This document shows, in pieces, positions 31,642 to 62,428 of a stretch of DNA of 64,000 nt; position 1 is the first letter of the stretch, and the number at the start of each line of letters is the position of its first letter. Source of the DNA: Uranotaenia lowii (lineage: Eukaryota; Arthropoda; Insecta; Diptera; Culicidae); NCBI RefSeq assembly GCF_029784155.1, contig NC_073693.1, forward strand, positions 284,738,875 through 284,802,874. Direction: 5' to 3'. The notes below the pieces were generated by a model. The model was not told the origin of the DNA. It searched no databases and worked only from the letters and a program-made list of their open reading frames with translations. The translations under genes were made by a program, and so were the position numbers.

Positions 31642-32214
31642 ATGCACTCAAAGCGGTTCATACTCTTGATACTGGTCCAGATCGGGATCTGTTGTCCGCC
31701 CCAGAATCTTACCCTGGACGCAACTTGTCCAGCGGGAACCGTTCTCTATGGACTACTTCAGAGTAGAATGGGATTGACCTCACCGGGCCTGTTTAACTGC
31801 GTCAAACTTCTGGTGAACTGTTCCCAAACTACGGTACAAATATCGGCCCAAATCTGCTGCCAAACGGTTGAAGCATCCAACTACGTCTGGCCTTACTACT
31901 CGAAAGAGCACCAAGTACATCTGGTGAACATGGAACACGACTTCTATATCCAGGGTTGTTTCGAACATCACCACACCAAGCATGTCGATCTCATGAGATT
32001 TCTGGCCGGGAAGGATGAAATACCGGAGGATATGACCACATGTCGGATGGCTCCCATTTATGTTGCGGACCGGCCAGGAAAAACTTCTACGTGGAAAAAA
32101 CCAGTCGTCGTTATGGTACTATTTTGGATGTGTGGAATTGTTTGTGGATTTCTGATGTGTAGCTTGGTGGGTTTTGGGTTAAATGATCATTGGAGTCGAT
32201 CACTCAAGTTTTAA
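31642..32214 (+). CDS. Cysteine-rich type I membrane protein (family member 1)
   Basis: This intronless 190-residue protein starts with ATG. Residues 1-17 are a signal peptide (hydrophobic FILLILVQIGI). The ectodomain has C18, C29, C53, C60, C72-C73, C106 and C134: C-x10-C, a CPAGT motif, then C-x(6)-C-x(11)-CC, later QGCF. N22 (NLT) and N59 (NCS) are glycosylation sequons. One transmembrane helix (about 154-178) is followed by a ~12-residue basic tail, predicting plasma-membrane topology with the Cys domain outside. The cysteine frame is shared exactly with the genes at 44667, 60994 and 61775; closest is 60994-61743 (TCxxGTVLxGxLQ, CVKLxVxC). I recognise no named family and assign no function. 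An eight-Cys ectodomain suggests four disulfides. Codon use is clearly less AT-rich than the flanks. It sits between an assembly gap and a hAT insertion. Confidence 0.85.
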   Translation: MHSKRFILLILVQIGICCPPQNLTLDATCPAGTVLYGLLQSRMGLTSPGLFNCVKLLVNCSQTTVQISAQICCQTVEASNYVWPYYSKEHQVHLVNMEHDFYIQGCFEHHHTKHVDLMRFLAGKDEIPEDMTTCRMAPIYVADRPGKTSTWKKPVVVMVLFWMCGIVCGFLMCSLVGFGLNDHWSRSLKF

Positions 32215-32256
32215 ACCTCAAATTACCAGAATGTAACTTTGAGATTATTTCAAGAA

Positions 32257-32262
32257 AATAAA
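32257..32262 (+). terminator. Poly(A) signal of gene 1
   Basis: AATAAA lies 43 bp after the TAA stop, giving a 3' UTR of roughly 60 nt. Confidence 0.75.
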
Positions 32263-32351
32263 CAATAACATTTAAATTGTTTCTTTTCTTTCAAAAATAA
32301 TCTTTCCTGGTAGACATTCGTCTCCCTTTAACTCTAATCTAAAATCGCAAT

Positions 32352-33207
32352 TAGAGTGTCCATTTCCCGGCCATTTTCTCGTTCCCGGGAATCGGGAAAT
32401 CTGACGGCCTGTTTCCCGGGAATTCCCGGGATCCCGGGAAATATTCAAAAACTTGTAGAATATATGCACTTCGAACCTTTCGTGCATACAAACCCATAAT
32501 TTGGTCATAATGTTTTTTTTAAACTTATTTTTTAATCAAATAAATCAAACTGTTTTCAACAATGATAAATTAAAAACAGTCTAACGAACTATGAAATAAC
32601 CTGAATAAGTCAAATGAAGAATTCACCCATGCAATTAGGAGTTGATAAAAAAAATGTTTTTATTTGTTTGTTTATTCCAACCATTTTTTGTTTTTTCTCT
32701 GAACACTTTACATATTTGCTCTTCATGTGAAAAAAACGATGTATTCTTCATTTTGAGGTTTTGAAGTTCATCTGGTTTCAATGACAAGGGAAACAAGTGC
32801 ATGAATGTTACATTCGAGAAAACACAATCTGTCTACCTGCTACGGAATTTTTTTCATGTAATTTTCGATCTGTTGTTAGTTTTAGTTAAATGAATACGGC
32901 GTGGAAATACATATAATCTTTTTAAACTAATCTATTTGAATAAAAAAAATGGCAACAAATGGCTGCAAAATGTCTACTGCCACAGGGATCGGCATATTCG
33001 GCATAAGTTTTGTTCAAATTGTACAAAAAAAATAATTCCGGAGGCTATCAGGCTTTTCCAGAGAAATAATCTCATACATGTCGGGAATTCCCGGGAATGA
33101 AATTACGATTCCCGGGAATGAAATTACGATTCCCGGGAATCGAGAATTCCCGAATTTTTCAAATTCCCGGGAATTCCCGCCCGGGAAATCCCGGGACAGA
33201 CACTCTA
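32352..33207. mobile_element. Non-autonomous hAT element, 8-bp duplication
   Basis: The ends are TAGAGTGTC and GACACTCTA, flanked by a perfect 8-bp duplication ATCGCAAT (32344-32351 and 33208-33215). Both features fit hAT. Subterminal zones are loaded with CCCGGGAATTCCCGGGA-type words on both strands (several within 32366-32450 and 33080-33200), likely transposase-binding repeats. The core is AT-rich and non-coding. It lies about 90 bp beyond the poly(A) signal of gene 1. Confidence 0.9.
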
Positions 33208-33297
33208 ATCGCAATATATGTCTGATTTCTCAACCGATTTGTAAAAAAAAATATTGTTTTGTAAATCTCGTAGCGTAATGGGAATTTAAAACAAAAT

Positions 33298-34098
33298 TCA
33301 GTTAAAATAATTCCTTTTTATGTTATATAGATAAAAAAAAAGAAGGGCTTTGGATACAGCCCAGTTGTTTCCTGAGCCGATGTCCGTGAGTTTGAGCCCA
33401 AGAGTAAATTTGTCGTTCATATCGAACTTGCTCTTGCCGGTGAAAAACTTAAACCCCGGAATTGGCTTAAAATCGACTTTTATATACGTTTCGTCGTCCA
33501 TCACACAGCAGCCATATTTTGCCAACATATTCTCGTAGAACTTCTGTGCCCAAGTTTTAGCCGTCCATTGTTGCCGCTCATCGCGATTTGGGAAGTTCTG
33601 TTGGTACCTTGTATGTATGTAGTCCAGCACTTTTCTTTGCATTCTGGACGCAGCTCTGCGATATGCCGATCTTTTTAGCCAAATCACGGCATGAGACGTT
33701 GGGATTTGCTTTAATCATCCGCATCACCTTTCCCTCCGTGGTTTTGTCCTCCGGTGCCGGGTTTCTTCCAGCTTTTTTGGCTTGGTCCAACGTCAACCGT
33801 TCCTGGAACCGTTTCAACACTCTGGAGATAGTTGAATGGTGAATGTTCAACATTTTTCCCAACAGGCGCGCATGGCGGTGCGACAGGTCAGGAAGTTCCA
33901 GGTGTTTGGAAAGAATTTGTTCTCTCGACTCGCGTTGGTTCACCTCCATTTTTGTTGAATCGAAAAACACGACTTCGAGTTTGACAGCATGTAAACAATA
34001 CACATTAATGAGAAAGTGTGCAACATTTGGTTAATTTTTACTCAATGGTAATAAAGTTTTGCCCTGTTGAATGTGTCGCAATAATTTCGTGCTTCCTA
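33298..34098 (-). pseudogene. Truncated mariner-type transposase (5' half)
   Basis: The minus-strand reading starts at an ATG near 33949 (MEVNQRESREQILSKH). It has two helix-turn-helix units (LGKMLNIHHSTISRVLKRF and CRDLAKKIGISQSCVQ), then a frameshift near 33610-33650. The next frame holds QKFYENMLAKYGCCVMDDET, with the first catalytic Asp, and FKPIPGFKFFTGKSKF. It ends soon afterwards: the second Asp and the Glu are missing. The presumed terminal repeat lies at 34070-34098 (TAGGAAGCACGAAATTATTG on the minus strand) and abuts the next mariner; no matching left terminus was found. Dead by frameshift and 3' truncation. Confidence 0.85.
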
Positions 34099-35389
34099 TA
34101 AAGGGTGATACGGTCAAAATTTGGTCAATATCAACTTAACGTATTTCCTTCAATTTTACATTTAAAAATCCTGAACACCCCTCATATTGAAGGTGTGTGT
34201 GTGTTTGTGTAGAATGTTGCTCCTATTTTGATTTTGGAATTCACTCTTCAGTTGTCAAAATGCCGTCCAATAAAGAAGAGAAGCGTATCAAAATTTTGCT
34301 CGCGCAACGCGAAAATCCGAGCTACTCGCACGTAAAGCTGGCAAAATCGCTAAAAGTTGCCAAATCAACCGTTACAAATGTAATTAAAGTGTGTGGGGAA
34401 CGTTCGTCGACAGCCAGGAACTCTGGATCGGGGGGAAATCGAAAACCGGAAGCCGCTGAGACGACAAAGAGAGTTGCCGGTAGTTTCAAGCGAAACCCTA
34501 ACCTCTCTCTCCGAGATGCCGCAAATAAGCTGGGTGTATCGTCTACAACCGTGCATCGAAATAAACAACGAGCAGGACTATCGACTTAAAAGAAGGTAGT
34601 GACTCCAAATCGCGATGATAAACAAAATACGACGGCCAAATCGCGATCCCGGAGGCTGTACACGACGATGCTGATGAAGTTTGACTGCGTGGTAATGAAC
34701 GACGAAACCTACGTCAAAGCCGACTACAAGCAGCTTCCGGGACAGGAGTTTTATACGGCAAAAGGAAGGGGAAAGGTAGCAGATTTTTTCAAGCACATGA
34801 AACTGTCAAAGTTCGCGAAGAAATATCTGGTTTGGTAAGCCATCTGTACCTGTGGCTTGAAAAGCAGACTGTCAACCAAGAAATTTACGTGAAAGAGTGT
34901 TTGAATAAACGTCTGCTGCCTTTCCTGAAGAAACACGGTTGTTCCGTACTGTTTTGGCCGGATTTGGCATCTTGCCATTACGGTAAAAAGACCATGGAGT
35001 GGTACGCCGCCAACAACGTGCAGGTGGTTCCCAAGGACAAGAACCCTCCCAACACGCCAGAGCTCCGCCCAATTGAGAAATACTAGGCTATTGTCAAGCG
35101 GAACCTAAAGAAGACCAAAAAAACTTCTAAGGACGAGCAGCAGTTCAAGGCAAACCGGCTTTCTGCGGCGAAGAAGTTGGACAAGGTGGCCGTACAAAAT
35201 CGGATGGCAGGGGTTAAGCGTAAGGCCCGTCAATTCGGATTTAGAAAAGCAGAAGCCTAACTGAATATTTTTCCTGAATTTTATACCAATCAAACTTGAA
35301 AAAGAAATTTAATTTGATTTTTTAAATAAACGATTTCACCGATTTACACGCGTTTTCCCTTGACCAAATTTTGACCGTATCACTTTTTA
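34099..35389 (+). mobile_element. ITmD37E transposon, complete ends, dead gene
   Basis: The TIRs begin TA-AA(G)GGTGATACGGTCAAA at the left and are inverted at 35350-35387, flanked by TA at 34099-34100 and 35388-35389. The element is 1.29 kb and carries one degraded transposase. It landed at the TA of the CTATAGACTCGG header of tandem array 2. Confidence 0.9.
34260..35260 (+). pseudogene. ITmD37E transposase pseudogene
   Basis: It starts with ATG (MPSNKEEKRIKILLAQ) and has helix-turn-helix motifs (HVKLAKSLKVAKSTVTNV and LSLRDAANKLGVSSTTVH). The catalytic motifs are NDETYVK, FWPDLASCHY and PIEKY, so the DD37E triad codons survive, with 37 residues between the last two. Breaks: in-frame TAA near 34587; stop plus frame change near 34836; and TAG at the usual Trp of PIEKYW (about 35085). 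The last frame ends with RKARQFGFRKAEA and TAA at 35258-35260. The breaks rule out an active product. The length otherwise matches the group. Confidence 0.92.
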
Positions 35390-36346
35390 GACTCGGAAAC
35401 TACTGAGCCGATTTGCGTGAAACTTGGCAGGTGGGGGTATTGGAGACCGGAAAAGGTTCCAATTATGATTTGAGACCCCTCCCTCTCACAGCAAAGGGGA
35501 GGGGCCTCCCAGACAAAAGACAAATTTTTGCATAACTTGAGAACGGATCATGTATGAGAGTGTATTTGGTAACGAGAAATATTCTTTAAATGGTTTGGTA
35601 CCCCTCCCTCCTTCCAATGGGGAATTATTAAGTGGGGAGGGGCGCTTCCATACATTTTTTTCGCACAATTCGAGAACTAGTCAAGCAAATGAAACCAAAT
35701 TTGGCATGCGAGGGTATTTGGATAGGAAGAATATTTTAAAGATAATTTGGGACTCCTCTCTCCTTCCAGTTTGGTGATAAAAAAGAGGGAGGGCCCTCCT
35801 CCCATACAACTTTGTTGCACAATTCGAGAACGATTCAAGCAAATAGAACCAAATTTGACATGGGTTGTTATTTGGATACGAGAAATGTTTCGATCATTAT
35901 TTGGGACTAAACATTCTTCGATTGGGGATATACAAAGGGAGACGAAGTCTTCCATACAATTTATTGCATTGTTCGATAGCTTATCATGCAAATAAATCCA
36001 AATTTCACATAGGAAGCTATAAGGCTACGGGTCAAGTTTCTACGATGTCTTCCCACTGAGGGGATAGGAAGGGGAAGGGGATCTCTCATACAGTTTTATG
36101 CATTACTCGAGAACTAATCGAACAAAAAAAACAAATTTATCATGGAAGTATGTTCGAGTACGGGAAGTGTTTTTCCCATGTTTCGAGACCCCTCCTTCTC
36201 TCCAACGGGTAGAGGGGAAGGAGTAGAGAGGTTTTCGTAAGATTGGGTTAGTTTCCCAGGTTGCATCTTTGCCAGCGTAGCCGCTATTCAACAAATAGTC
36301 CCAAATTCCGCTTCGAGTAAAATTGCACGTGAAATTTTAATATCTA
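35390..36346 (+). repeat. ~150-bp tandem array 2
   Basis: It starts at GACTCGGAAACTACTGAGCC, the same header as array 1, and continues with about six units of ~150 bp containing AAATTTGGCATG..GGGTATTTGG and CCCTCCCTCC..GGGGAGGG. The right end is interrupted by the TIR element at 36347. Open frames at 35486-36294 are translations of the units. Confidence 0.85.
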
Positions 36347-37103
36347 TAGGGTAACGGACCAATTTTGGACCGCTTTGGGAAGTGACTATGCTATTTTCTA
36401 AATTAATAAAGTACATGTTACAATTTTTTACTGCTTTATCCGTTCATTACGAAGACCAGGCTTTTTCATTCGAAACATATCGTCGTTTGTTGTAATATAA
36501 CAAGATTTAAGCCTAAAAACTCGTTTTTTCGATAATTACACTGGTCGGTATTTTGGACCACCAGGTTTTTATTTTGGACCATTCTTTGGACCTATTTTAG
36601 ACCATCCCTAAACTAAATCTGTTTTTTTTTTTCAATTATGCTAAATTTTCGAAAGCGATCGATGCGCAATTATGCGAATAATCCGGTCATCTTTTCTGCT
36701 GTTATTCTTGTAGTCAAGTTTGGTTTGTTCACGTTAGTTCATTCCTGAACTAACTTTCTTCAACTTTCCCCACCCTCTATTTAGGCACACTTGTTTATTG
36801 AATATTTTTTACTACAACCTTTTTGTCCTTAACTTGTTATGCTTTAAAACATCAAAAACGAATTAGAGTAAAAACAGACAAACTCCTTTGTTATATAGTG
36901 TGTTTCATATGTTTTGAAAATTTCGACAACACGCTGTCATCTCGACGAAATTTGTTCTGAAGGGCTAAATACTGGCCAGTTGGCTTATCTTTAGGATCAA
37001 TTTTTAGAACGCAATCTCCTTCAGGCAACCCAATGATAATTTAAGAAAGTCTGACATCATCAACTCCGTGACATGAATTGATGCATTTTGACTTCCAAAA
37101 CCT

Positions 37104-38385
37104 TAGGGGAGAGTGGGGATACTTGATCCCCTTTTCTTATTTTCACCAAATCTTTTTGGAAAAATTTAGCAACTCGCCGTCTTTGACATTTTCTGACAGC
37201 TTGTAACTTCAAGTTTCTATGCTCCATAAATTAGAACGATACTTGAACCCGTTGATGATCTAGAAGCATTTTCGTGGGAGTAAAAAAATTGCGATTTGTC
37301 TGAAGTTAAGGGAGACTATCCCCACTGACCACACTGACATGACACTTAGAACAAAATTTCGTTCAAATTTTGTCTAAAAGCCTCCTACTGTCGACATTGC
37401 GCGGCAGCAATTCGAACATAAAAATTTGACTCAATAGCATGGACTCCAACCTGTTCAGTCCGTTCGAGTAGTCTGAACTAATCGATATTTATCAAATGTC
37501 TGGTTTAATTTTCCAGGCGGGCTACAACATCGATCGAAGCGCCTCTGGTATCGACATTGCTCGTTAATTTTTCGAGCAGCCAAAAATCGAAATCGAGTGT
37601 CTAGTCAGTGTGGTCAGTGCTATCCCCTATTGAAGGAGACTTGATCTTTTATTCAGGAAGCCCTAATCCTTGTATAAAAATCAAACAAAACCCCAAGATA
37701 GAATGTTAATTGACTATTTTGGTCATGTTTGTTCTCATTTCACAATTTATAGCAGACATAAGAAGAAAACTCTATAACTTTGTCTCAACGCTAATAACAT
37801 TGCATACTTAAAGGCGCTATTTTTTTATAATTATGAGAAAATTAATTATTTTTGCTCTTTTCTTCAGACAATCGTTTGATAAATATTCGTTTTTGGATAA
37901 ATATTAGTAATTTCGTAATCAGCAATCATAACGATCAATTCAGAAGAAAAATATGCCGTTTGGAAGGGGAATCAATTGTACCCAACTCTAGGGGATCAAT
38001 TGTACCCATAATCAACATTTTAGAAAACTTTTTCTGAAAAAAGTTGAGAGTTTTCCATTGCTTTGAAAATATGGCATTATGAAGTTCATTTTACGCTCGA
38101 ACGATTGATACATTGGAACAAATATTTTTTTCATAATTTTCCCATGTAAGGAACATTTTAAAGTGATGAAAAAAGATCTTCAAGTTACATTTTGTGAAAT
38201 TTTTCAAACAAAGTTAAATTACTCAAACAATTATTTTGTTAAAAAATTTTAAACTACAAGCATTGTTATTTTGCTCATTTCGGCACATTTTTCTAGAACA
38301 TTTGATCTATGTAAGACATTTCAGTTTCGGGATATAGCTAAGGAATCAAGTATCCCCAGGGATCAAGTATCCTCATTCTCCCCTA
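37104..38385. mobile_element. TIR element (GGGGAGAGTGGGGATAC ends), nested
   Basis: TA-GGGGAGAGTGGGGATACT at the left and AGTATCCTCATTCTCCCC-TA at the right. The phrase GATCAAGTATCC / ACTTGATCCCC recurs near both ends. It contains a further MITE at 37323-37619. No gene. Confidence 0.88.
37323..37619. mobile_element. 297-bp MITE with 16-bp perfect TIRs
   Basis: CACTGACCACACTGAC begins it and GTCAGTGTGGTCAGTG ends it, flanked by a 7-bp direct repeat CTATCCC (37316-37322 and 37620-37626). It is inserted inside the 37104-38385 element, a third nesting level. Superfamily unclear. Confidence 0.88.
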
Positions 38386-39526
38386 GTGGATTTGGTTTGG
38401 CATCAGTTCTGTGGAATACATAGATTCAAAAAAAAAATGTCCGAGAATTATTCGATCTTTTTAAACATCTAAAAGCTAGATTTTTTAGCTGAAAAATTCA
38501 CGAAAGTTTAGTTTTATCATTGAAACTACTTTTGTTTTACGATAGAAATGATCGTCGAAGTAGATTTTTCAACACTTTTTCTTCTTCAAAAATTGCATAA
38601 CCACAGTTGCTGAAAAATAAGATTCTTAGTACTCATTCGCTTTTAATTTTTGAACATTTTAGCAATTTTTCCTAAGTTTTGGAACATATACTATAATTGA
38701 ATATATTTTTGATATTTTGAAAAATTGTCCTTCTGTTATTTGAGATATTTCAATTTTACATAAATTAAACTCGTTATATATTTGCCGATTTGTTCTCGTT
38801 CTTTCCCAACCCTTCCCTTAGACCGGGTTTATATTTCGTCTCTTCCAAGTATTTTTTTTTCTAGAAAAGCAACTCTGGATGGTTGTAATTTTTGGACCAA
38901 ACTGTCAATAATTTTTCATGAAGCTTAAAAAAAGACTCAATAAAAAATTGGTGCATGTCCACTTTTTTTCATGTTTTTAAGCATTTTTAAGCTGAAGCTT
39001 CTGACAACTGCTTATCAAACAGTTGCCATTAATGTGGATTGTTAGATTATTGTGGTTTAAAGCACAAAAAGTAAGTTTAAACAATGATTGGCTTGGTTTT
39101 ATGCCGATTGAAGTGAACCCCGTCTAAAGGCGGGTTTGGATTTTGACGAGTTAATTGAATAAAATAATTACAAAATTTCAATTTTTTTATCATAATATTT
39201 CAAAGTGTACAAAATTCTTTCCATATCGTTCAATATCGTCTTATTACGTTTATAAGCATTTAACAGCAAGTAAAATACCCAGGTTATGTTGAGTGGTCCA
39301 AAATAAGTCCCTAAGAAATTAAGTGGGACCTATTTTCGACATGGGTCAAAATGCTATCAAAACATGATTTTTTGGTTCTTAGACCTTACAAACTAGTTTG
39401 CAAGTGTTTTTTCATAGCCGTGAACATATTTGTAGTTGTTAAACTCATCACAGCTATGCAGAAAACTTCTTGAAAGTTGACTCCAATACTTGCACGTTCT
39501 CCTGAAATGGGCTTGATTCGGCCCAA

Positions 39527-41412
39527 GCTTAGCTTAGCTTAGCTTGATTGACTACTCACATCCACCTTAAATCGTAAAATCCGAAATGCTGTTCTACTAT
39601 AAAGATGTTTGTATGAGAAAAAAATGTTAGATTTGTTGAAACTTTACATGTTAATTTGAGTTGAGTTTTCAATTAAGGCACAATTGTAATATTCAAAGAA
39701 CAATAAATTACATATAGCATTTTGAACTCCACGATCGCTGGTGTGGCTCAGTAGAACGAATTCCACATCGCCAATGGTTGCTACTCCGTGATTGACCGAG
39801 GCCATCAGTTTTGTACAAGGGTCAAAAGAATGATACTTGGGATTAGCCGATTCTCAATGTACAAAACTGATGCTCTCTCTTTGAACATCAATAACGGCGC
39901 CGGCCACGTCCTAGTAGTCAATGGATAGATTGGAAAAGGTAGAAAGGGATGAAAGACATAAATTTGCGCTTTAGGACCGAGGTCACCTCTGCATCCTAGC
40001 AAACAATTTTGTTTGGGAGAGTGGGTAAAAGGATACGATCTGGAAGCACTTCTGACTAGTGCATTGATCTTGTATTAAAAATCCTAGTCTCCTACGTTTT
40101 TAAACATTTGGATTTAACAGAATTACAAACATGTTTGTGCAAAAGTATTAAAATTAGTATCTTTTCTTTATCTGCTTAATATCTTCGAAGATGAAAGTTT
40201 GATTAGTTGATTAGTTTCTAATCAAGCACAACACAATTTCTACGCATAATTTACAATATGATGTTTGTTTTTCATTTGTCAAAACTAACCTTATTTTACA
40301 GTTTTTCTTTAGGTATGATAAGCAGCGTGATAAAGTTAAAATAATTATCATTTAGTTTAACTTCTAAATATGATTTGATGTTTTTTTTTGTGAATATCTT
40401 TGAATGGAATTTCAACTGAGGTAATGGTTGTCTGATCCTTCTTACTCAAATGCATATGTTAACGTACCTAAAAGCAAAACCGATCTTCCTATCAAATACA
40501 ATCAAAAGCATGCTTCTGTTGAAATACAGTAGAAAAAGTGAATTAGCAAACGATGAATAGTCGCGATGACAATTTTGTCTTAACGACAAAACAGTAAAGT
40601 TATTTTATGAAATACTAATATGATGATTATTTGAGTAATTAGCGATTAAAGAATTTGTCGGTTTGTTTAACTTTAATTTCAAATATCTACGTAATAAAAA
40701 CTGTTTAAATCTATCATTTCAATGTGGAAACTAATTTATAATTTTTTGTCGGCGAACTAACGACTTGAAAATGCTTATGAAGCTTAATGTTCATCTTGCA
40801 ACAGTGTGCTCAACAAGCTTTCTTGCATCTAAACTTGTTTACAAGTTCGTTTCCGTGAAATATTTCACTTCGCATGAAACTGTCAGAAATTCATGTTTGA
40901 TAGATTTTTTAAATAAAGAATTTGAACATATATAAAAATAATTAAAAAAAATGACTTAGCTTGATATCCTTGACAATGACAGATTCATGGCAATTGCATA
41001 GCGACCCTGCAGAAAATCGTTTTCGGCTGTTCCCAATGATGTAGCACCAGTCCTCTTCACTCAACCAATTCGATGAAAAAACACTTGAAGTTTCGAAGAA
41101 AATCCACTATCACTACATAGAAAACCCCAAAACACAACACCTAACCAAAATTTTACAATTTTAAACCCATTTGTAACGAAATATTATAAAAACTTTCACA
41201 ATAACACATTTCAGACACTTCACTCTGACTGTGCTGCCTCCCCATGATCAAGGTGTTCCGGGTTTTCCGATAAAGATTCACCAAAACACCAAACTTCGGC
41301 TAAGGTGAAAGTAACACCCAATTCCTTTCAAAAGTCAAAAACATGACCAAATCCCTCAGCTTGCCGTCTCTAGAAATCTGAAATGATTCTCCCATTTTGA
41401 ACTTTCAGAAAA
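39527..41412 (-). mobile_element. Probable 5'-truncated LINE insertion, 28-bp TSD
   Basis: A perfect 28-bp direct repeat beginning CTCCTGAAATGGGCTTGATT (39499-39526 and 41413-41440) brackets 1.9 kb. On the minus strand the insert ends in (AAGCT)n, a simple-repeat tail like that of I-type mosquito LINEs. Long target duplication plus tail indicates target-primed reverse transcription. No RT domain survives; 39805-40002 (-) is a short frame in the 3' region. Confidence 0.72.
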
Positions 41413-41650
41413 CTCCTGAAATGGGCTTGATTCGGCCCAACTGTGAAAATTCAAAACTTTATTTTCAATTTTCTCTGCCTTACTTTCTTAATTGAATAGA
41501 ATGTTAGATATGATTAGAATCATAAAAAGTAGTTTTAACTATATGTGTTCAAAATTTTAATGATCAAAATGGTTTATGAGGGAAATATTGGAAAAAAGCT
41601 GAAAGGTGATCCAAAATATGTACCCGGTCCAAAATAAGTCCGTTACCCTA

Positions 41651-43542: not shown

Positions 43543-43679
43543 GATTTCTGATTTCAATATTTGTTAAAAACGAACACAAACACTTACAGGATCTCAATGA
43601 AACTCGATGTTTCCTCGAAGAGAATCCTTTTTCTTAATTCTAAGCGTACATCTTTCGAGGATATGATGGCTAGCATCTT

Positions 43680-43770: not shown

Positions 43771-43800
43771 GGCTATCTTCTATTTGTATCAAACGACTAA

Positions 43801-44666: not shown

Positions 44667-45302
44667 ATGACCGGGCACCGAATCGACTTTCTTATCTACC
44701 AGTTGTTATTTTTAGCAGCCGGAAGCACTATTCATCACCCTGTAGTAGCGGAAACAGAATGCCATACAAGCAATCGAACTTTGGACAATACCTGCAAAAT
44801 TGGAACTTTTCTACGAGGCTCGATTGTGGCCGACGGAAAAGACCCAAAGGAGGAACATCCAGCCGAAAACGTGGGAAGATGTTTCAGAATGGAGCTGAGC
44901 TGTTCTGCGGAAAGGTTAATGGTAACGTTCCGGAATTGTTGCCTCGGCGGAGGTAGACCGTGGATCTTCAACAGCCACTTCGATATTCACTGGAACCAGG
45001 ACGAAATTCATCTGGAGGATCGCGGAACGAAGTTTTGGCTTCAAGGCTGCTTCCATGCAAACGGAAAAATGTTGTTCAAGCGAATTGTGGTGCTGAAGGA
45101 TCGAAAAGCTGAGCGACCTAGAAGGAAACCTAGTTTGTTGACCTGTTTTGTTGGTAACAGAAGGTCCATCATAAGATCAAGAATTTTGGAATCTAGGAGA
45201 AGGGTGCGATCTTTTTTAAAGGTTTTATTCATTACTATGTTGTTAATGTTTTGGATCTCAAGTGTGTGCTTGTTTGAGCTTCCGTGCTCTAGATTTTTCT
45301 AA
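44667..45302 (+). CDS. Cysteine-rich type I membrane protein (family member 2)
   Basis: 211 residues, intronless. The frame is open from 44658, but that codon is GTG; the first ATG is 44667 (MTGHRIDFLIYQLLFLAAG), which directly gives a signal peptide. Ectodomain cysteines are C32, C43, C72, C79, C91-C92, C128 and C160: C-x10-C with CKIGT, then C-x(6)-C-x(11)-CC, then FWLQGCF, the family pattern. N36 (NRT) is a sequon. A basic stretch (residues 140-182, many Arg/Lys) precedes a transmembrane helix at about 184-205 and a ~6-residue tail. The arginine-rich juxtamembrane segment is peculiar to this member. Function unknown; no named family recognised. Overlapping frames at 44600-44956 (+) and 44735-44971 (-) are shadows. 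Confidence 0.85.
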   Translation: MTGHRIDFLIYQLLFLAAGSTIHHPVVAETECHTSNRTLDNTCKIGTFLRGSIVADGKDPKEEHPAENVGRCFRMELSCSAERLMVTFRNCCLGGGRPWIFNSHFDIHWNQDEIHLEDRGTKFWLQGCFHANGKMLFKRIVVLKDRKAERPRRKPSLLTCFVGNRRSIIRSRILESRRRVRSFLKVLFITMLLMFWISSVCLFELPCSRFF

Positions 45303-51667: not shown

Positions 51668-51774
51668 CTAAAATAATTTGGATTCCTTATCTGACTTTTT
51701 TCAATAATAACTTATTCCGGGTTTTAAACATTCAATTCTGATTTTTTTCAATCGATCATTTTTGCACTTATACC

Positions 51775-53696
51775 CAGCGATGCCACACATACCGATTTTC
51801 CGGTATTTATACCGATTTTTGAGCAACATTTTGACCAAGAATCGGTATATACCGATTACCGATTTTTGGCAAAACATACCGATTTCATACCGATTTTTAA
51901 GATTTTAACTCAAACTTCATTTCACTTCCACATTCCCACTTAATTCAAGCTGACCTCGTAAAGGTCATGTAGAAAGGAGACAAAGTGCGGTAGCTGTCGT
52001 GGCGTAACTTTGATCTGTACAACTTTGAAAGTATCCTGCAAAGATCTCCACTGCTGACTCTCATAATTCGTTCAGTTATTATTATTATTAATTTTATTTC
52101 TGACTTTTTTAACACTTATGTTGTGTTCATTCAAGTCTAGAATTCGTTAAGTTGTTCGCGCTGTTTTGTTCCTATGTTCTGTCAAATGATGCACTATTAT
52201 GGTGCTCAACCTCAAAGCCAATGGACTTAGCTCAAAGCTGATATTTGACCTTCTGCAACTGCCAGTAGAAGTGGTAGAAGTTTCTAAAGATCAATCTCAA
52301 TTGACAATGCTCTTGTCTCCTGAGATGCTAAATCTTCATGGGAAAATATACACCGTTTGAATATAATCCTTGTTCAACTTGTCGCCAGATGTGGTATGTC
52401 AAGATTTGATGTGCAATCAGATACACGGTTTGTCATATCATCGCTATAATCTTCAATCCTTCTCCATTTTGTTAGCCAAATAAATGATATCACATGTATG
52501 CAGAGATCACCAGGCCACGCCAGACAAAAGGGTATTTTCAGTTTTAGAAAAAATGTGTTTTTAAATCTTTTTTGGAGGAACACCTTCTTGTAGAACACGT
52601 TTCTCATTTATTTTCGCGTATATACTACTTGAGTTTTCATATGACTATTGAGTGATTTTTCTAAAAATAAAATTAGTTTTCCATTGGCTGAAAAAAAATT
52701 TAAGCAACAACTCTCTCAACTTTCTGCAATCATTTCTTTTTTTAATCGCTAGAACTCATATTAAATTAAAATATATTAAAAGCTTTGAAAGCTGAAATGG
52801 CCAGTTTGGCAGAAAAACCATCAACCAAACGAAGAACATCAACTTGGGCCCATATTTACCTCGAACGTCAAAAAAACCATTGGATTTGTAAGTACTTACT
52901 AAATTAAAATTTCCTTTAGGTTGACCTGGTTCGAATTTATCAAATAGCTAAACATCAATTTGAAGTATTTCTTTATTAATTGAGACAATACTTGGATTTG
53001 TAGATAACTAATTACTTATTTATTACTTTGGAGAGAACAGTTCAGTAACGTGTTGATAGCACGTGGGTCGACGAAGTATGACCAATTTTCACTTGTTGAT
53101 TTGGTATCCACGGTAGCATAAGTCGATGCCTCCTGTGGTAACACAATTAAAGTATCTAGTTTTTACTTAATTTAATGCCTAAACCACGTGTAACCTGAAG
53201 GTGCTCGCCATGCCCTTATTTTTCTTAGCCAAAGGTAACTTTTAAACTAAATTTAGATTAAATTATGAGTACTGGAAAGAAATACTAAATTCGGAATCTC
53301 TGCTGCTTATCATTTGTGATTTTTGCTTTTCGTCAGCAAAAGCAGATAGTCTTAAAATAAAAAAAAATGTGTAAGTCGTAACAAACATAAAGTTCTGTTA
53401 AAATTTCAAAACCGTCTTTTTATGTACCTAGAACCAAGTTACGGAATGGAATAATATATGCTAAAACACACTTAGTCAGTTAGTTTAAAACTAAAAATGA
53501 ACATTCCTAAGAGTTCTTAAACTTGCTTTTTATTACAAGCTTCCAGTTAAAGAAAAAAAATGGTTAGGAAGTTGAAAATGTAAGCATTTTTGAATATCCG
53601 CCTCAAATACCGATTTTCATACCGATTTTTAGGATTTCCATACCGATAAAAGATTTTTTTGGGTTCCAAAATACCGATAAAAATGTGGCATCACTG
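51775..53696. mobile_element. Non-autonomous hAT element, 8-bp duplication
   Basis: CAGCGATGCCACACATACCG begins it and TGTGGCATCACTG ends it. CTTATACC is duplicated on both sides (51767-51774 and 53697-53704). Subterminal regions repeat ACCGATTTT/TACCGAT more than ten times. The interior lacks coding capacity. It interrupts the end of a MITE related to 24688-25000. Confidence 0.92.
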
Positions 53697-53759
53697 CTTA
53701 TACCCCTTTGGCTTTGAGGGTATCGAATGAACCTTTTGTCACATTTAGAATAACAATTT

Positions 53760-53980
53760 TGTGTAGTCGATGATTGCTAATGACGTTTCTTGGGATAAAC
53801 GCAACTCTGTCGGCAGATAGGTATTGCTTATCGATCACATCTCGCTCTCGCGTTTCTCCTCACTGAACACACACACACTCAAGTGGAATGTGCTTCCCAG
53901 ACAGTCTACGTACAATCGTCTCGAAGACAAGACGTGTAAAGTCCCCCGTTCGGCTGACTGGCTACAAACGAACCTGCACA
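53760..53980 (+). repeat. 5' LTR
   Basis: 221 bp, TGTGTAG...CTGCACA, 98.6% identical (3 mismatches) to the 3' LTR. The short frame 53824-54042 lies partly in it and is not a gene. Confidence 0.95.
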
Positions 53981-53981
53981 A

Positions 53982-53997
53982 TGGCGTATCCTGCCAG
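53982..53997 (+). other. Primer-binding site
   Basis: TGGCGTATCCTGCCAG starts with the TGG expected to pair with a tRNA CCA end; the tRNA is not identified. Confidence 0.75.
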
Positions 53998-54108
53998 ATA
54001 TTGTTTTTCTGGACTGAACGGGGGAATTATTTTGTTTGGTGAAGTAAGTTTTTCTTGTGTGTGCAAACGTGGTGAATGTGAGTGCGTTCAAGGATTGTAG
54101 GCACTTGG

Positions 54109-54964
54109 TAGGGGAACATTTCCTATTATGCGCCACCTAAGCGAACCGCTGATTTTCTATGTATTCCACGTACAAATTGTGTTAAAAATGGGTGCAATCG
54201 TTGAAGAAAATTGTTTTCTACAAATGCCTATAATTTTTTATTACTTAAATTGCTATAGTTGCTTCAAAAACTTGATTTTTTAAAACCTTATTCAAAGCCA
54301 CAGAACAAAACTGTGTTGCAAATACGCGCCGCTGTGTATTCAATACGCGCCTAGCAGCCGAACACACCCGAATGCAGCCGAAGACCAAAAACACACCAAT
54401 ACTTACAGACACTTTGACTGAAAAGAAAATCAAAATGGACTAATCAAAATTAAAAAAAAATTAAAAGTTGATTTTTTGGGGTGAATTATTGCTCAAAATA
54501 TGGTTTTAGACTTTTTGTTCATTGTCAATGAAAATTGGCCTTTTTGAAAAATTAATGCTATTTTCAGCCTACTACGATTGGCGCGTCATAACGAGCACAT
54601 GGGCCGTGATAGAACATACCCATGAAAAGCATACCTTAGCGAGTTTAGTATGATTTTTCAGCATTAAATCATAGTTTAGATTCTCCTCTATCGATGTGTC
54701 AGAAAATATTGTCTTATTCGTCTTTCTCTGCTAGGTGACACCTTATTGAATGTGTTTTAAAATTGAGATCGAAATGAAGAAAAACCTAAATTGTGAAATT
54801 ATCACGACACAGGGGCATTTTAAGGAAGAATTCATACTTGCCATGACCAATCACAGCATTTAAAACAAATTGGTAATATTTTGCTGACTTAAAATGTTTC
54901 AGATTCTTCAAAACAAGGGTGGCGCGTATTAGCCACATGGGGCGTTATATGAACTTTTCCCCTA
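54109..54964. mobile_element. TIR element inside the LTR element (GGGGAACATTTCC ends)
   Basis: TA-GGGGAACATTTCCTATTATG at the left and GAACTTTTCCCC-TA at the right. The phrases TATTATGCGCCAC, ACGCGCC and GGCGCGTATTAGCCAC recur inside. No gene. Confidence 0.8.
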
Positions 54965-55352
54965 TATGAATTGTTCAATGTGCGTTATTCATCTTGTTTG
55001 AAATGTTCGCACTGTTCATGAAATGCACTTTTCAGTCATTCTAAGTTTTCTATAAACCAATATTCGAATATAAACTATTATATATTAATTGACTTATTTT
55101 GATAAGAAAATAAGTTAATGTTAATTGGGAGACCAATTTCAAATATTAGTATGATCTTTTATAGTTGGGATATAATAGTTAAAGTCTGTTGAAACAGGTT
55201 TTCCGACGGATTTTAAGTAGAGGATTTTCAACCGTTATTGATCGAAATGAAATGCCATTTTCAAAAACGTTTATTTATGAAAGTATTATACGATTTTCAA
55301 TCATTTGACTAATAAGAAATATTGGAGCGAGATTTCTAGAGTAAGAAGGAAG

Positions 55353-56076
55353 GGTTCACTTGACGAATTTTCGTTGGATCGGGAGGACCAACATGAAGAG
55401 TGTTCTGAAGGTTCACTCTATGAAATATCGTTGGATCGGGAGAACCAACATGAAGAGTGTTCTGAAGGTTCACTTTACGAAATAACGTTGGATCGGGAGG
55501 ACCAACATGAAGAGTGTTCTGAAGGTTCACTTTATGAAATATCGTTGGATCGGGAGGACCAACATGAAGAGTGTTCTGAAGGTTCACTTTACGAAATAAC
55601 GTTGGATCGGGAGGACCAACATGAAGAGTGTTCTGAAGGTTCACTTTACGAAATAACGTTGGATCGGGAGGACCAACATGAAGAGTGTTCTGAAGGTTCA
55701 CTTTACAAATTTTCGTTGGATCGGGAGAACCAACATGAAGAGTGTTCTGAAGGTTCACTTTATGAAATATCGTTGGATCGGGAGGACCAACATGAAGAGT
55801 GTTCTGAAGGTTCACTCTATGAAATATCGTTGGATCGGGAGGACCAACATGAAGAGTGTTCTGAAGGTTCTCTTTACGAAATAACGTTGGATCGGGAGGA
55901 CCAACATGAAGAGTGTTCTGAAGGTTCACTTTACGAAATAACGTTGGATCGGGAGGACCAACATGAAGAGTGTTCTGAAGGTTCACTTTATGAAATAACG
56001 TTGGATCGGGAGGACCAACATGAAGAGCGTTCTGAAGGTTCACTTTAAGAATTTTCGTTGGATCGGGATAGACCAT
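55353..56076. repeat. 57-bp minisatellite, ~12.5 units, open on both strands
   Basis: The unit contains GTTGGATCGGGAGGACCAAC and ATGAAGAGTGTTCTGAAGG. Because 57 is divisible by 3 and no frame gains a stop, a 247-codon plus frame (19-residue repeats such as CSEGSLYEISLDREDQHEE) and a 246-codon minus frame (HVGPPDPTLFRKVNLQNTL) are both open. The plus frame begins with TTG, not ATG; the minus frame begins with ATG. Units are nearly identical, so no selection signal can be inferred. More likely a structural minisatellite of the LTR element than a gene. Confidence 0.9.
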
Positions 56077-56190
56077 GATAAATTCTTAAAAACATGGAGA
56101 AACGATATTTTGTGACCAACTAAATCTAAATATCTTCAGATTCAATTTTCAGAAATAAACAATCATGTTTCTGTTTTTCAGTATTTGTGT

Positions 56191-56200
56191 AGGGGGAAGA
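56191..56200 (+). other. Polypurine tract
   Basis: AGGGGGAAGA immediately precedes the 3' LTR, the expected plus-strand priming site. Confidence 0.85.
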
Positions 56201-56421
56201 TGTGTAGCCGATGATTGCTAATGATGTTTCTTGGGATAAACGCAACTCTGTCGGCAGATAGGTATTGCTTATCGATCACATCTCGCTCTCGCGTTTCTCC
56301 TCACTGAACACACACACACTCAAGTGGAATGTGCTTCCCAGACAGTCTACGTACAATCGTCTCGGAGACAAGACGTGTAAAGTCCCCCGTTCGGCTGACT
56401 GGCTACAAACGAACCTGCACA
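56201..56421 (+). repeat. 3' LTR
   Basis: 221 bp, same length and ends as the 5' LTR. The frame 56265-56618 crosses out of it and is not a gene. Confidence 0.95.
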
Positions 56422-56426
56422 AATTT

Positions 56427-59400
56427 GATAGAAATTTATTTTTATCTGATGAGAATCATATTCATAAACATCTCATGAAAAGGATTATTTCTTTGTATTT
56501 CAAAGATATGAAAGTGAAATTCACATTTGGTGCAATTTCTGCTTTGGCTCTAATGGTAACTTTGAATCTGTTTTTTAAAAATTCAATCCATATTTTGTTT
56601 CTCAAAACTACCTTTTGAGATTCTGATTTGAATTTTAGACACTAATTTTGGTTCTTAATATAACCTGATTTTAAGTTTTGAATTCTTAAACTCTTATATC
56701 TGTATCTCTATGGAATTTGAATTTAATTATTTTGTGTATCCTGTTGTGTATTTCTTGTTCACCATTGGTGCACGGAATCACTTCGTTTTCGAAACGTTGG
56801 CATTCGAGTGTATGCCATAAATCGAAAATTCCAATTAATTTTCAAAAAAAAATGAATTACATTAGTAAACTTATTCATAAATTACATCCAGAAATGCTTT
56901 ATACTAGTACCACGTGGTGTGTACGTATACAAGGGATTATTCGGTCGGTCGAAAACAACGTTGAAAACGCTTCAAAATCATCATAAACTTTTGTTTTTAG
57001 TAAAACATCTTAGGTATATCCTTGTATCTTTCACTGTAGACAGCTTTATACTTATGTAAATTATCGTTTATTTTTTATATATCCAGGATTACACATAAAT
57101 CCAATAAAGAATTCGAGATTAGTCAAATCTGGTCGAGATGTCCAGATATTGTTGAAATCTTTCCGGATTTTACCCGGGTTTAATCAAATTATTTGCTAAA
57201 TCAAATAAAAAAACACAAATTTCTCTTTAAAAATTTTTAGATTTTGTGTTGGAAAATATTTTTTTTTTAATTTCAAAATGAACATAAATTGTTGTCTAAT
57301 TCTTACGATCTCAACAGACTTAACACTGCTGCTGTGATTCAATGAAAACTTTCAATTCCAAGTTATTCTGTTTTATTTTCCTCTTGTATGGTATTGGCCT
57401 AGATTAGATATGTTCAAATTTCCCCTTTTTCACAAATTTTTCAACAAATCGTCCTGAATTGCCCAACCGAGTGTTAGAATGTATGGTATGCTTTAGGTTA
57501 AAGATCATCGTTCTTTTTAACAACCATTTTGAAGATATCTTGCAATTTCAAATTGCTCGGCACCTATTTCGACGTATTTTATGCCAGATTTCACAGGAAC
57601 CCATTCTCTTTGGTGATAAACGCTCTGTAGAAGCAACAAGTCGTCTCATATCCTTCAGTTATTGGTGACGTTTTAAAAATCAGCGAGGCCCCTACTTGAA
57701 AAAGATCTTGTGATAATCATCTGGTCATATCAACTGGTTGAAAATTATCGACTCCAAAACGTGAGGGGCATAGAGATGGAAGAAATTGGAGAAAATCTAA
57801 ATAAACGCTTTTGTATTTTTATTGAAAACTAGACAGAATATATAAGACCGCATATTCGGCCGAATTCGGGAGAATTTTTCCAAATAGAATTTTCACCGTA
57901 GTATCGGGAAGTTATTTGATCTTAAAAGGTGTTTAAAAATAAGTGTTAGAAATCTAGTCAGAAATTTTGCTCGCCTCCGGCCGAATTTAGTCTTAAATGA
58001 GTGATGTAAGTGAGGCTTGAGTCATTTAATTTTACGATACTATATGAGGTTTACGAATTTTATTTCTAATTGTAGATTTCGATTCAATTAACCTTTTGTA
58101 TTAAAACTCAATGCTTGACATACAAATCCTACCTCGTCTTTGGAAGTGTAACTAAACAAGAACTGAATTTGAAACGAAACATTTTGACTTCAAAATTAAT
58201 TCATGGAATACTTATTTTATACATAGACATCTCATGATGGCCCACAGAATTTGCAGCTCAAATCCAAAATTTAATATCCTCTACCTCATTACTAAAAATT
58301 TTGATTAAAAAAATCGTTTATGTCATTACAAATGTTATGCTGATATGAAATATTCTTCAAGAAAACAATTTCAGCCTCAAATATTTTTTTCCTTGTTCTT
58401 CTTAATGCACAACATAACAAAAGGTTTTGATAAATTACAGAAAGCCACAAAATTTACATGAATTAAAAACGTTATTTCAACTGATTTAGTGCCCTAAATC
58501 TTCAAATGCAATTTTACTATCAGCTTTTGTTATTGAAATCACTTTTAAAAATAAGAACAGCGCATAAGAAAGCTCTGCAATTTTTGAAAACACTTTCAAA
58601 CAAAAACATAACATTAAGTTTTAAATCAATTATAAACTTTTCTCAAGACTTTAAGTAACTTTGAGTTCAGCGCAAAATATTTTAGAAGTTTTTTATTTGT
58701 TTACTTGTCCTCATTTAACGATTTTTTAAAGAAGTTTATAATCGAATCGAATTTAAGATATTTCTAAAGCATAAACCTTATCATTTTACAGGTTTCAAAA
58801 TATTTATAAAATGAAATCATGTTTTATTTTGAGTTTCTGCAGTAATGTCAAAAACACTTGTACCTAATGATATTTTTCCAAATTTAAAAAAAAACTGTTG
58901 AATTTAATTTTTTTAGATCATGCATCAACATCATCAAAATATTATTCCTTAATTGAATGAAGAAAAATCAACAAAACTAAATGTGATAGTCCAAATATGT
59001 AAAAAAAATCGAGTTCAGGACGCTAAAATCTATCAAATCAGTCATCAAAAGATAACCACCAAAAAGCTTCTCCCTTGAGTTATCAATTAAATTTTATAAA
59101 TAAGTATTTTAATATAAGGGTAAGTCGTGTTTATTGAAAAAAACTCCTTAAATGTTAAAAAAAAATCTTATTAATTGTCATATTGTGTTTTAATTTTTTT
59201 ATGAATTTACCAAATTTTATAGTACAGTTTTTTTCAATTTTTGATTAAATTTACCAAATTTTAAAGTCAAACTTTTTAAATTTTTAGACACATTCTTGAT
59301 ATGTTCATCTATGCTTTTCAATTCCGATTTTTTTGTGTTCTTAAAACATAAACCTTTATTTTTTTCCTTAAAAACAATTCACATTTAAATTCTCGATTTT

Positions 59401-59554
59401 TTTTTTTCAAATTGATAACACTTAAGCGAACATTTTCAATCAACCTTGTCATGGTTAATTTTTTACCTGATCTGACGTTGGTTTTAGAATTCAGTTGTTC
59501 TGAAATCTGTGTTTTGAAAATATTGATTTCAAATTTTAAAACTAGACTGCTCAG
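56427..59554. other. AT-rich DNA without recognised gene
   Basis: The frame 56717-56986 begins with a hydrophobic stretch resembling a signal peptide, but its first codon is TTG and no upstream ATG or acceptor is evident. The frames 57459-57668 and 59318-59659 show AT-driven composition only. Confidence 0.5.
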
Positions 59555-59854
59555 AGCAAGTTCACTGGTGTTGGGAAAAAGTGGTAGAAATTTTGTCACT
59601 TTTTGCACATTTTGAAAATTTTGCCATATAAAAACATTTTCAAGATCTGTGGCGTTCAAGTTTTTCTACAGCAAGTGTTGTATTTTCGCATGCTGTGATG
59701 CAAAAATAGCAATATTTCTATCACATACGGCTGAAATAGAAACAGTGCTGCAAAAAAATACAACGCCCAGAGATCTTGAAAACATTTTTGCATGGTAAAA
59801 TTTTCAAAATGTCAAAATTTCTACCACTTTTTCCCAACACCAGTGAACTCGCTC
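59555..59854. mobile_element. Inverted-repeat MITE, ~95-bp arms
   Basis: Arms 59555-59656 (GAGCAAGTTCACTGGTGTTG...) and 59762-59854 are near-perfect inverse copies around a ~105-bp centre containing TTGTATTTT/AAAATACAAC. Confidence 0.88.
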
Positions 59855-59906
59855 TTAGTATTTATTTGAAGCAAATTTATAATTCAGAATAAGAACCATC
59901 ATTTAT

Positions 59907-60576
59907 TAGGGGAGACTGAGTTATCATGAGCCACTTTTTTCTTTGCTTCATAACTTCATTATTATAAAAGATAAAAAGAAAAAAATAAATGGAAAGGTTT
60001 TCTACATTTTTAAGGTACCATTAGACATTTTTTTATTTTTTAAAACATCAATTTCCCAAGTGTTATAAAGTATTTTTTTTTTTTTGATTTTGAAAAACTG
60101 TGAGGAAACGCGGGCCACCAAATCCAAATTGACTAGATATCGTGCAAAGTTTATGAGTTGACCCAAAACTGAAATTTCATAATTCATTTAGTTATTTTAA
60201 AGCAATTTCAGATGAGGAAATTAAAAAAGAGTTGTGTGGATCGATTATTTCGTGACTTATTTATGTTTCATCAAAAATTCCTTTTCCACGTGAAAGAACA
60301 TAACAAAACTAAGATCATAAGCGTATGAGCATTTTTTATGTACTTTAGGACTCCCACGGATGCAATTTGCGGGTGCTTGTTAAATTATGTAAGTACATTT
60401 TTCTAGGCTAGTTAAATAAAAGAAGCATATGATACGTACATAAGTCAACAACATATAGAAAAACATGCTTACGCAAAGCGATGACAGTTGGATTGAGATT
60501 TTTATCTCAACACACAGCTGAGATATCAAGAGTGGCCCACGTTAACCCATGGCCCACATTACCTCACTCTCCTCTA
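59907..60576. mobile_element. TIR element with GTGGCCCAC phrase, copy A
   Basis: TA-GGGGAGACTGAGTTATCATG at the left and CCTCACTCTCCTC-TA at the right, about 670 bp. The right end carries repeated GTGGCCCAC / ATGGCCCAC words. It matches copy B at 63334 in reverse orientation over its whole length (for example GATCATAAGCGTATGAGCAT and AGAAGCATATGAT). Confidence 0.9.
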
Positions 60577-60936
60577 CTTTTATGTACTTTATATAAAATT
60601 CAATACTTTTTGAGATTCTGTAATAATTTTGATTAAAAAGAGTATGTTTGTAATCCATTTCCTCATTTATTGTGTATTTTTGGTATTGTTACTATTTTGA
60701 ACTAAATTTAAATTTCGAAAACATTTTTGTTTATCACGAATGATGCCAAAATCAAACGGGGTCTGCAGTAAAGTAAAGCTGGTGTACATAAATCAGGTAA
60801 GTAACTTCTTAACCTTCCTTAGAAAATTCAGTTATATGATAAGATCCAACAATACAATAGCTGTTTTGTCTGCATTTAACGTTCCTTTGTTGGAGTAACA
60901 ATAAACCTTCGTTAATTGAATATTTCGATTTCGATT

Positions 60937-60983
60937 GATAAAAGCCTTTAAATAGACTCCACGAAGCATCTGACTATTTCAGC
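60937..60983 (+). promoter_or_regulatory. Core promoter candidate of gene 3
   Basis: GATAAAAG (60937-60944) and TTTAAATAG (60948-60956) lie 25-45 bp upstream of TTTCAGCTGG (A of CAG at 60981), leaving a very short leader before the ATG at 60994. Confidence 0.45.
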
Positions 60984-60993
60984 TGGACTCGTA

Positions 60994-61743
60994 ATGTCCT
61001 TAAAGGTAGCCCTGCTCTGCTGGTTGATAGCCACGAGACAGCACCAGACTTCCGGTAAAAATGTCACTTGTCCGTCCTACAATTCTACTTGCGTTCCGGG
61101 AACGGTTCTCAATGGATCCCTGCAACCGTTAGTGCTGATTAACATATCCCAAGAGCAGCCCAAATCATCGACGGAACCCGCAAAAGGATGTGTTAAGCTG
61201 GTCGTCAAATGTACCACCAATTTTATGTTCTTTTCGATAAGGAATTGTTGTACCAGCAAAAGCGACGAGCTAAAGTTTCCTGTGTACATTAGAGGAGTGA
61301 CTGCATGGAAACCTCAAGATCGAATCCTGCTGACGGAAACCAATAACAGTTTCCAACTGGAGTTCTGTGCCATCCAAATGGAGGTTACGAGCTTTGTTGA
61401 ACCGTGGCTTTTCGAATCCAGCAAAGAACCAGTGGAGGATTTCGAAATTCCTTTCCGATCCTGTCAAATGTGGAAACGTTTGAACTTTTTTCGTACTCCT
61501 TATTTCATGAGCTATGTTTCGGATTATCCTATTGGTCCGGCTATTGGCCCAGCTTTTGACAGTCGGGTTCTCAATGTGTCGGCAGCTAACCAGGACCCAA
61601 AATTTGAACTACCCCATCGCATTTTTCCCAAGAGGGAAGAACCACGTGGAGAGCCTAATTTTTGGGGATTTCTTCTGGTTTGTGTTTACGTTGAAGTTTG
61701 CGGAGTTTTTCTGATCGTTCACAAATGTTTGAAATGCAAATAA
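60994..61743 (+). CDS. Cysteine-rich type I membrane protein (family member 3)
   Basis: 249 residues, intronless, ATG start with G at -3. The signal peptide spans residues 1-21 (VALLCWLIA core). Cysteines are C26, C33, C66, C73, C85-C86, C125 and C157: CVPGT, then C-x(6)-C-x(11)-CC, then FQLEFCA where the others have QGC. Several sequons occur (N23, N30, N40, N50, N117, N194). A ~65-residue membrane-proximal stalk after C157 makes this the longest member. Transmembrane helix at about 223-243, then a ~6-residue tail ending CLKCK. Nearest relative in the window is gene 1 (31642). It converges with gene 4, 31 bp away. The stop codon is embedded in AATAAA. No named family recognised; function unknown. 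Confidence 0.87.
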   Translation: MSLKVALLCWLIATRQHQTSGKNVTCPSYNSTCVPGTVLNGSLQPLVLINISQEQPKSSTEPAKGCVKLVVKCTTNFMFFSIRNCCTSKSDELKFPVYIRGVTAWKPQDRILLTETNNSFQLEFCAIQMEVTSFVEPWLFESSKEPVEDFEIPFRSCQMWKRLNFFRTPYFMSYVSDYPIGPAIGPAFDSRVLNVSAANQDPKFELPHRIFPKREEPRGEPNFWGFLLVCVYVEVCGVFLIVHKCLKCK

Positions 61744-61744
61744 A
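61739..61744 (+). terminator. Poly(A) signal overlapping stop of gene 3
   Basis: AATAAA overlaps the TAA stop (61741-61743). If used, the 3' UTR would be only about 10-30 nt and would reach into gene 4. Confidence 0.55.
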
Positions 61745-61773
61745 GGCTTTACATATTATCATAAATAATGGTT

Positions 61774-61779
61774 TTTATT
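61774..61779 (-). terminator. Poly(A) signal overlapping stop of gene 4
   Basis: On the minus strand GAATAAAAA overlaps the TAA stop (61775-61777), mirroring gene 3. Cleavage 10-30 nt on would overlap the gene 3 3' end. Confidence 0.55.
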
Positions 61780-62428
61780 CAACTTGACTTAACATTACAA
61801 CCATTGACAAGAGATTTTTTAAAAAACCTATTATTAAACTGTACAATATTGTTAAAATACATGCTATTAGCACAAACCACTTAACAACGGATAAATCACT
61901 TTTTTGAATTTGCGCTTTTTTGGAACCGTCATTCATTTGTTCTCCAAGCAATTTCAGAAATAAACTATACTTAAAAGTGGTACAATTACCCAAGCCAATG
62001 ACCGGACGTGGCTCCTGGACCATTTGCATTTCCAAAACTACCGATTTTCCAGATCCGTTCAAACGAAGACAACCCTGAAACGAAAAGGTCACATCGAAAA
62101 CGGCCAAGTGTGCCTTGTGATCCAGCCTTGAGAACCAATCGAAATCTTCCGGACGGAATTTATTTGCTCCAACATCCGATCGACAACAGTTATGTATCTG
62201 AATCGAGAAAGCCTGGCTATGACATTCCAGCGAAGCTTTCATACATCTCCGGGTTAGGGACTCGGTATAAAGCTCTACCGAATTAACGAACTTTATCCAT
62301 CCGAACCTATTAGTTCCTTTGGGGCAGTTTCCTTCAACGACGGCAACTTCCGGGACACAAAACTCATTTTTCGCTGAGCTGAATGTTGGGGTCAGGAGCA
62401 GTAGAAACCACACTATTCTGATCAACAT
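61775..62428 (-). CDS. Cysteine-rich type I membrane protein (family member 4)
   Basis: 217 residues, intronless. The frame is open back to 62488, but that codon is GTG with a stop just upstream; the first ATG (62428) gives a textbook signal peptide (MLIRIVWFLLLLTPTFSSA). Cysteines are C24, C35, C62, C69, C81-C82, C120 and C149: C-x10-C with CPKGT, C-x(6)-C-x(11)-CC, then FSFQGCL. Sequons at N124 and N148. Transmembrane helix at about 181-203, then a ~14-residue tail. Tail-to-tail with gene 3, so their transcripts probably overlap at the 3' ends. The plus-strand frames at 62008-62286 and 62319-62504 are shadows. Function unknown. Confidence 0.87.
   Translation of the reverse strand: MLIRIVWFLLLLTPTFSSAKNEFCVPEVAVVEGNCPKGTNRFGWIKFVNSVELYTESLTRRCMKASLECHSQAFSIQIHNCCRSDVGANKFRPEDFDWFSRLDHKAHLAVFDVTFSFQGCLRLNGSGKSVVLEMQMVQEPRPVIGLGNCTTFKYSLFLKLLGEQMNDGSKKAQIQKSDLSVVKWFVLIACILTILYSLIIGFLKNLLSMVVMLSQVE

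Follow-up and report, generated by a model that had tools for sequence, protein, structure and literature searches.

The window studied here, a 64,000-nucleotide stretch of Uranotaenia lowii contig NC_073693.1, contains four genes for small cysteine-rich proteins that share one arrangement of cysteines and carry a hydrophobic segment towards the C-terminus. Gene 1 (P0001) occupies positions 31642–32214 and encodes 190 amino acids, gene 2 (P0002) positions 44667–45302 (211 amino acids) and gene 3 (P0003) positions 60994–61743 (249 amino acids), all on the plus strand. Gene 4 (P0004; 217 amino acids) lies at 61775–62428 on the minus strand, where alone its frame is found; the plus strand across the same positions carries many stops. 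Genes 3 and 4 are arranged tail to tail, and 31 bases separate their stop codons. All four genes are single-exon and intronless, each open from ATG to stop. Four frames of this length are not a product of chance, because the longest ATG frames in 20 simulated windows of matched dinucleotide content measured 89–173 amino acids and none attained at least 190. An AATAAA hexamer is located 3' of the stop codon in genes 1 and 2 and overlaps the stop codon in genes 3 and 4 (the latter seen by eye).

A shared frame of eight cysteines

The ectodomains of the four proteins, and of a fifth gene described below, keep eight cysteines in the order C, CxxG, C-x6-C-x11-CC, [QE]-x-C and C. These are residues 18, 29, 53, 60, 72, 73, 106 and 134 in gene 1; 32, 43, 72, 79, 91, 92, 128 and 160 in gene 2; and 24, 35, 62, 69, 81, 82, 120 and 149 in gene 4, and the last ectodomain cysteine of gene 3 is residue 157. 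The opening cysteine of the frame stands 6–10 residues N-terminal of the CxxG cysteine (C18, C32, C26 and C24 in genes 1 to 4). From the CC pair to the [QE]-x-C cysteine there are 32, 35, 38 and 37 residues in genes 1, 2, 3 and 4 respectively, and from there to the next cysteine 27, 31, 31 and 28. The pattern C-x6-C-x11-CC was found in five of the window's six-frame open reading frames of at least 25 amino acids, i.e. genes 1–4 and one unrelated frame of 27 codons.

A C-terminal hydrophobic segment is present in all five proteins, as judged by hydropathy and, in gene 1, also by a model-predicted helix. It begins at about residue 153 in gene 1, spans about residues 180–207 in gene 2, and starts at about residue 222 in gene 3 and about residue 177 in gene 4. 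In gene 3, which has six N-x-S/T sites, a long stretch separates Cys 157 from this segment. The N-termini are signal-like, as judged by eye and hydropathy with no predictor, and the hydropathy is weak in genes 2 and 3.

An alignment of the four proteins has 15 invariant columns, eight of which are the cysteines, and identity to gene 1 is 21–27%. With the cysteines kept in position, 300 shuffles of the sequences never produced a score as high as the real one for pairs 1–2, 1–3, 1–4, 1–5, 2–3, 2–4, 2–5 and 4–5. By tblastn within the window, gene 1 matched the other three genes at E values of 2e-6 to 2e-4, genes 3 and 4 matched each other at E 0.64 only, and no match between genes 2 and 3 appeared at E up to 10. 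Judged from these comparisons, kinship extends past the cysteine frame, since most pairs beat all 300 shuffles, and genes 1 and 2 provide the only link of gene 3 to genes 4 and 5.

A preliminary description of this DNA had assigned all four genes to one intronless family. The shared eight-cysteine frame and the shuffle scores support a single family, and the absence of introns is borne out by frames that are each open from ATG to stop; the strand had been omitted, and 61775–62428 is a minus-strand gene. The cysteine motif and downstream spacings given there agree with ours, but one ectodomain cysteine had been overlooked, the true total being eight. The C-terminal membrane helix with a short tail was also proposed there; each protein does have a hydrophobic segment, but that of gene 4 reaches nearly to the C-terminus and the length of its tail is uncertain.

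Further members and the search for relatives

Inspection of 100 kb on each side of the window identified gene 5 (C3:284681410-284682051, plus strand), which is matched by a profile of genes 1–4 at E 1.2e-28 and keeps all eight cysteines. Gene 5 is 42% identical to gene 4 and carries CxxGR where the others carry CxxGT. Gene 6 (P0126), found at C3:284658763-284659461 and at 284845077-284845775 (L019:2206-2901, minus strand, without the stop), is intronless and encodes 232 amino acids. It has a signal-like start, is rich in cysteine and includes a C-terminal hydrophobic stretch; the C-x6-C element is kept, and CC is replaced by a single cysteine 15 residues on. Comparison of gene 6 with the other five by hhalign was not significant (E 0.42), the best alignment being situated on the C-x6-C region. 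Gene 6 is possibly a sixth member on these sequence features, its homology not being established.

The genome was searched with P0001 at E up to 0.001 and with P0002, P0003 and P0004 at E up to 10. The matches listed, own copies included, numbered four for P0001, six for P0002, two for P0003 and nine for P0004, all of them at C3 284.68–285.32 Mb. The P0004 and P0002 searches recovered other genes of the cluster: gene 1, 2, 3 or 4 appeared with E values of 0.03–3, and the matches to gene 5 were much stronger. Neither search gave a match beyond this locus at E up to 10. These matches suggest that the family may be confined to this locus.

Neither genes 1–4 nor genes 5 and 6 matched a Pfam family at E up to 10, under HMMER filters that discard most weak matches, and NCBIfam gave no match for genes 1–4. 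The PDB was queried by sequence with genes 1, 2, 4 and 6 singly (genes 3 and 5 not singly), with a profile of the four genes and with a profile of five. Nothing was returned for gene 4, gene 6 or the profile of five. The weak rows for gene 1 (best E 1.4) and for the profile of four (best E 1.3) were dismissed as chance, as was the best row for gene 2, a lysin matched over a 21-residue stretch at E 0.17. A database of 5.8 billion proteins, searched at E up to 10, gave nothing for gene 1 or for the four-member alignment. As a control query of the same database, a transposase from the window retrieved 359 relatives with a best identity of 98%, and most of the 120 listed rows had the source 'lgn'. 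The database thus appears to include sequence from this genome or a near one; its coverage of insect genes is uncertain, and for that reason the absence of relatives is weak evidence for a narrow family. The transposase itself is a 336-amino-acid frame at 9248–10258 on the minus strand, in which two HTH domains score above the Pfam cut-off while a DDE_3 match falls below it.

Among the titles listed from the open-licence PMC literature, there is none that describes this eight-cysteine family. None of the libraries covered here contains it, although duplicated surface-protein families as a kind are well known. The preliminary description had counted four members and knew no named family for them. 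The four are indeed related, but there are at least five members, gene 5 lying outside the window; Pfam, NCBIfam, the PDB and the large protein database agree on the lack of a name, and the profile and alignment searches made of the latter two returned no credible relative.

A locus that appears twice, inverted, in the assembly

A run of 500 N at 30708–31207, which is a scaffold gap, ends 434 bases ahead of gene 1. The part of the window beyond it (31208–64000) is an inverted repeat of the left contig, matching in pieces from C3:284717948 leftwards, and the repeat starts at position 31208, the first base past the gap. The two copies are 99.79% identical over the first 16.7 kb and 99.11% identical over the 8 kb that carry genes 3 and 4. 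Among the matches listed, identity is about 91–97% around gene 5, beyond which scattered pieces of mixed identity, separated by long stretches without a match, continue to 284.87 Mb. The inverted copy of gene 1 (C3:284716942-284717514, minus strand) has an identical coding sequence, and genes 1–4 and gene 6 are intact in both copies. Window positions 10954–15252 and 18418–30707 recur, at 99.6–99.7% identity, in C3:285.321–285.338 Mb (285321052-285337651; L025-L027), beside a gap.

The double locus probably represents two uncollapsed haplotypes of one region, set head to head by scaffolding, because the first base of the inverted repeat coincides with a contig edge. A true inverted duplication of the cluster, i.e. 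a palindrome with its arms kept alike by gene conversion, is rather unlikely. It would account for the collinear inverted pieces that, among the matches listed, extend to 284.87 Mb, for the intact state of gene 6 in both copies, and for an identity that peaks near the axis at 99.8%, falls to 99.1% and then to about 91–97% around gene 5, and is mixed beyond. A repeat that begins at the first post-gap base is, however, what a misplaced haplotig would give, and the additional, also gap-adjacent copies at 285.32–285.34 Mb fit poorly with a palindrome and are a further sign of assembly redundancy. Taking two haplotypes for paralogues would give false gene counts and invalid selection tests at this locus.

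Nonsynonymous and synonymous differences between the copies number 0 and 0 in gene 1, 1 and 0 in gene 2, 3 and 1 in gene 3, and 3 and 0 in gene 4, giving 7 nonsynonymous to 1 synonymous for genes 2–4. For genes 5 and 6 together (codons outside the indel for gene 5, bases for gene 6) the counts are 12 nonsynonymous and 22 synonymous; gene 6 alone has 9 and 15, and its nonsynonymous sites outnumber the synonymous ones about 3.5-fold. Read from these substitutions, the pattern in genes 5 and 6 is one of ordinary constraint. The two sets differ at nominal significance (7:1 versus 12:22, Fisher p 0.015), in a comparison that is small and post hoc and in which variant age is mixed with selection. 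There is a hint here of quicker change in genes 2–4, and relaxed constraint would look alike. Of the rapid divergence that had been proposed earlier, the retention of the cysteine frame while the remainder diverges stands, but genes 5 and 6 are ordinarily constrained between copies.

The locus also includes other repeats and long frames. Window positions 533–6409 and 10498–14169 hold arrays of 7-bp (TCAGAAC/AACTTAG-like) and 9-bp (TGTCAATTT, TTGACAAAA) units, and the computed axis of the inverted repeat falls at about window position 5141, within the first array group (533–6409). At 55305–56076 a 57-bp minisatellite of 12.6 copies has one open frame on each strand, encoding 19-residue repeats; the minisatellite frame is longer in the other copy of the locus (369 versus 255 codons). 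Frames of 1407 and 965 codons at C3:284663760-284667980 and 284811567-284814461 appear retroelement-like by eye, and each is a single entry in the list of the 45 longest frames.

Possible nature and role of the family

We somewhat favour the reading that these single-exon genes encode small glycoproteins that are tethered as type I membrane proteins and bind outside the cell, a local family for which no named relative was found. The proteins would be secreted to the cell surface, where the eight cysteines may form four putative disulfides that lock a beta-rich ectodomain on the outer side. Because the C-terminal tail is short, they would most likely act from outside the cell, as surface proteins that bind a ligand or partner, and the remaining residues could diverge between duplicates. 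By analogy, recognition between gametes or in the reproductive tract, or immune binding, may be guessed. If the genes are expressed, they would constitute an undescribed surface-protein family at one locus, a good setting for the study of fast-evolving recognition.

Several results weigh against one part or another of this interpretation. Scores as high as the real one were reached by 13 of 300 shuffles for pair 3–4 and by 28 of 300 for pair 3–5, neither pair being significant alone. The genome searches with P0001 and P0003 listed self-copies only, and equally distant members elsewhere could escape such searches. The structure model of gene 1 is poor (pLDDT 44.8), its best part being a helix at residues 153–187 with a block mean of 87 at residues 161–170, and the model of the gene 4 ectodomain, which has eight beta strands, is of modest quality (mean pLDDT 58.9, pTM 0.57). 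Of the two copies of gene 5, the left one is intact and the right one carries a one-base frameshift. Gene 1 has a third copy, partial and with its frame broken after residue 147, at C3:285320165-285320553, beside the 500-N gap that adjoins the copy at 285.321–285.338 Mb. The 7:1 ratio in genes 2–4 is as compatible with relaxed constraint as with fast adaptation.

These last three observations are what would be expected of decaying genes, what is left of an older family on which constraint is now weak or absent. We nevertheless regard decay as improbable, as genes 1–4 are intact in both copies and synonymous changes outnumber nonsynonymous ones by 22 to 12 in genes 5 and 6, despite the excess of nonsynonymous sites in gene 6. 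Domestication of envelope or glycoprotein genes from a virus or mobile element would explain intronless, cysteine-rich proteins with a signal-like start and a single membrane anchor in repeat-rich surroundings. Against such an origin, which appears highly improbable, the top viral structure match has an E value of 0.15 and Pfam has no match; the five diverged members occupy a single locus, genes 5 and 6 differ between copies mostly by synonymous changes, and the genome searches with P0001–P0004 listed no dispersed copy. The proteins might alternatively be membrane-tethered, lipocalin-like (calycin) barrels, in which the eight-stranded ectodomain would capture a small hydrophobic ligand in the manner of secreted lipocalins while remaining anchored in the membrane. 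This is quite unlikely: Foldseek matches to the model, to lipocalins and fluorescent-protein barrels, are all weak, and no curated Pfam profile for lipocalins, nor for Ly6/uPAR proteins, matched genes 1–6 at E up to 10, with the same filtering of weak matches. Its fuller form, in which lineage-restricted, membrane-tethered and disulfide-locked lipocalin-like beta-barrel receptors would duplicate at one locus under selection for changing ligands in reproduction or immunity, is speculative and very unlikely.

Three kinds of known system come closest to the favoured family of surface glycoproteins. Like proteins of the lipocalin/calycin fold (nitrophorins, beta-lactoglobulin, alpha-1-microglobulin), which make up 42 of 50 weak VIA-align rows, the family has a predicted eight-stranded beta ectodomain. 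Insect surface proteins of the Ly6/uPAR (three-finger) type likewise have a small, cysteine-rich, membrane-attached extracellular domain, but their cysteine spacing is unlike that of the eight-cysteine family. Lineage-specific tandem families of insect surface and reproductive proteins, finally, also consist of adjacent copies that have diverged strongly apart from their cysteines.

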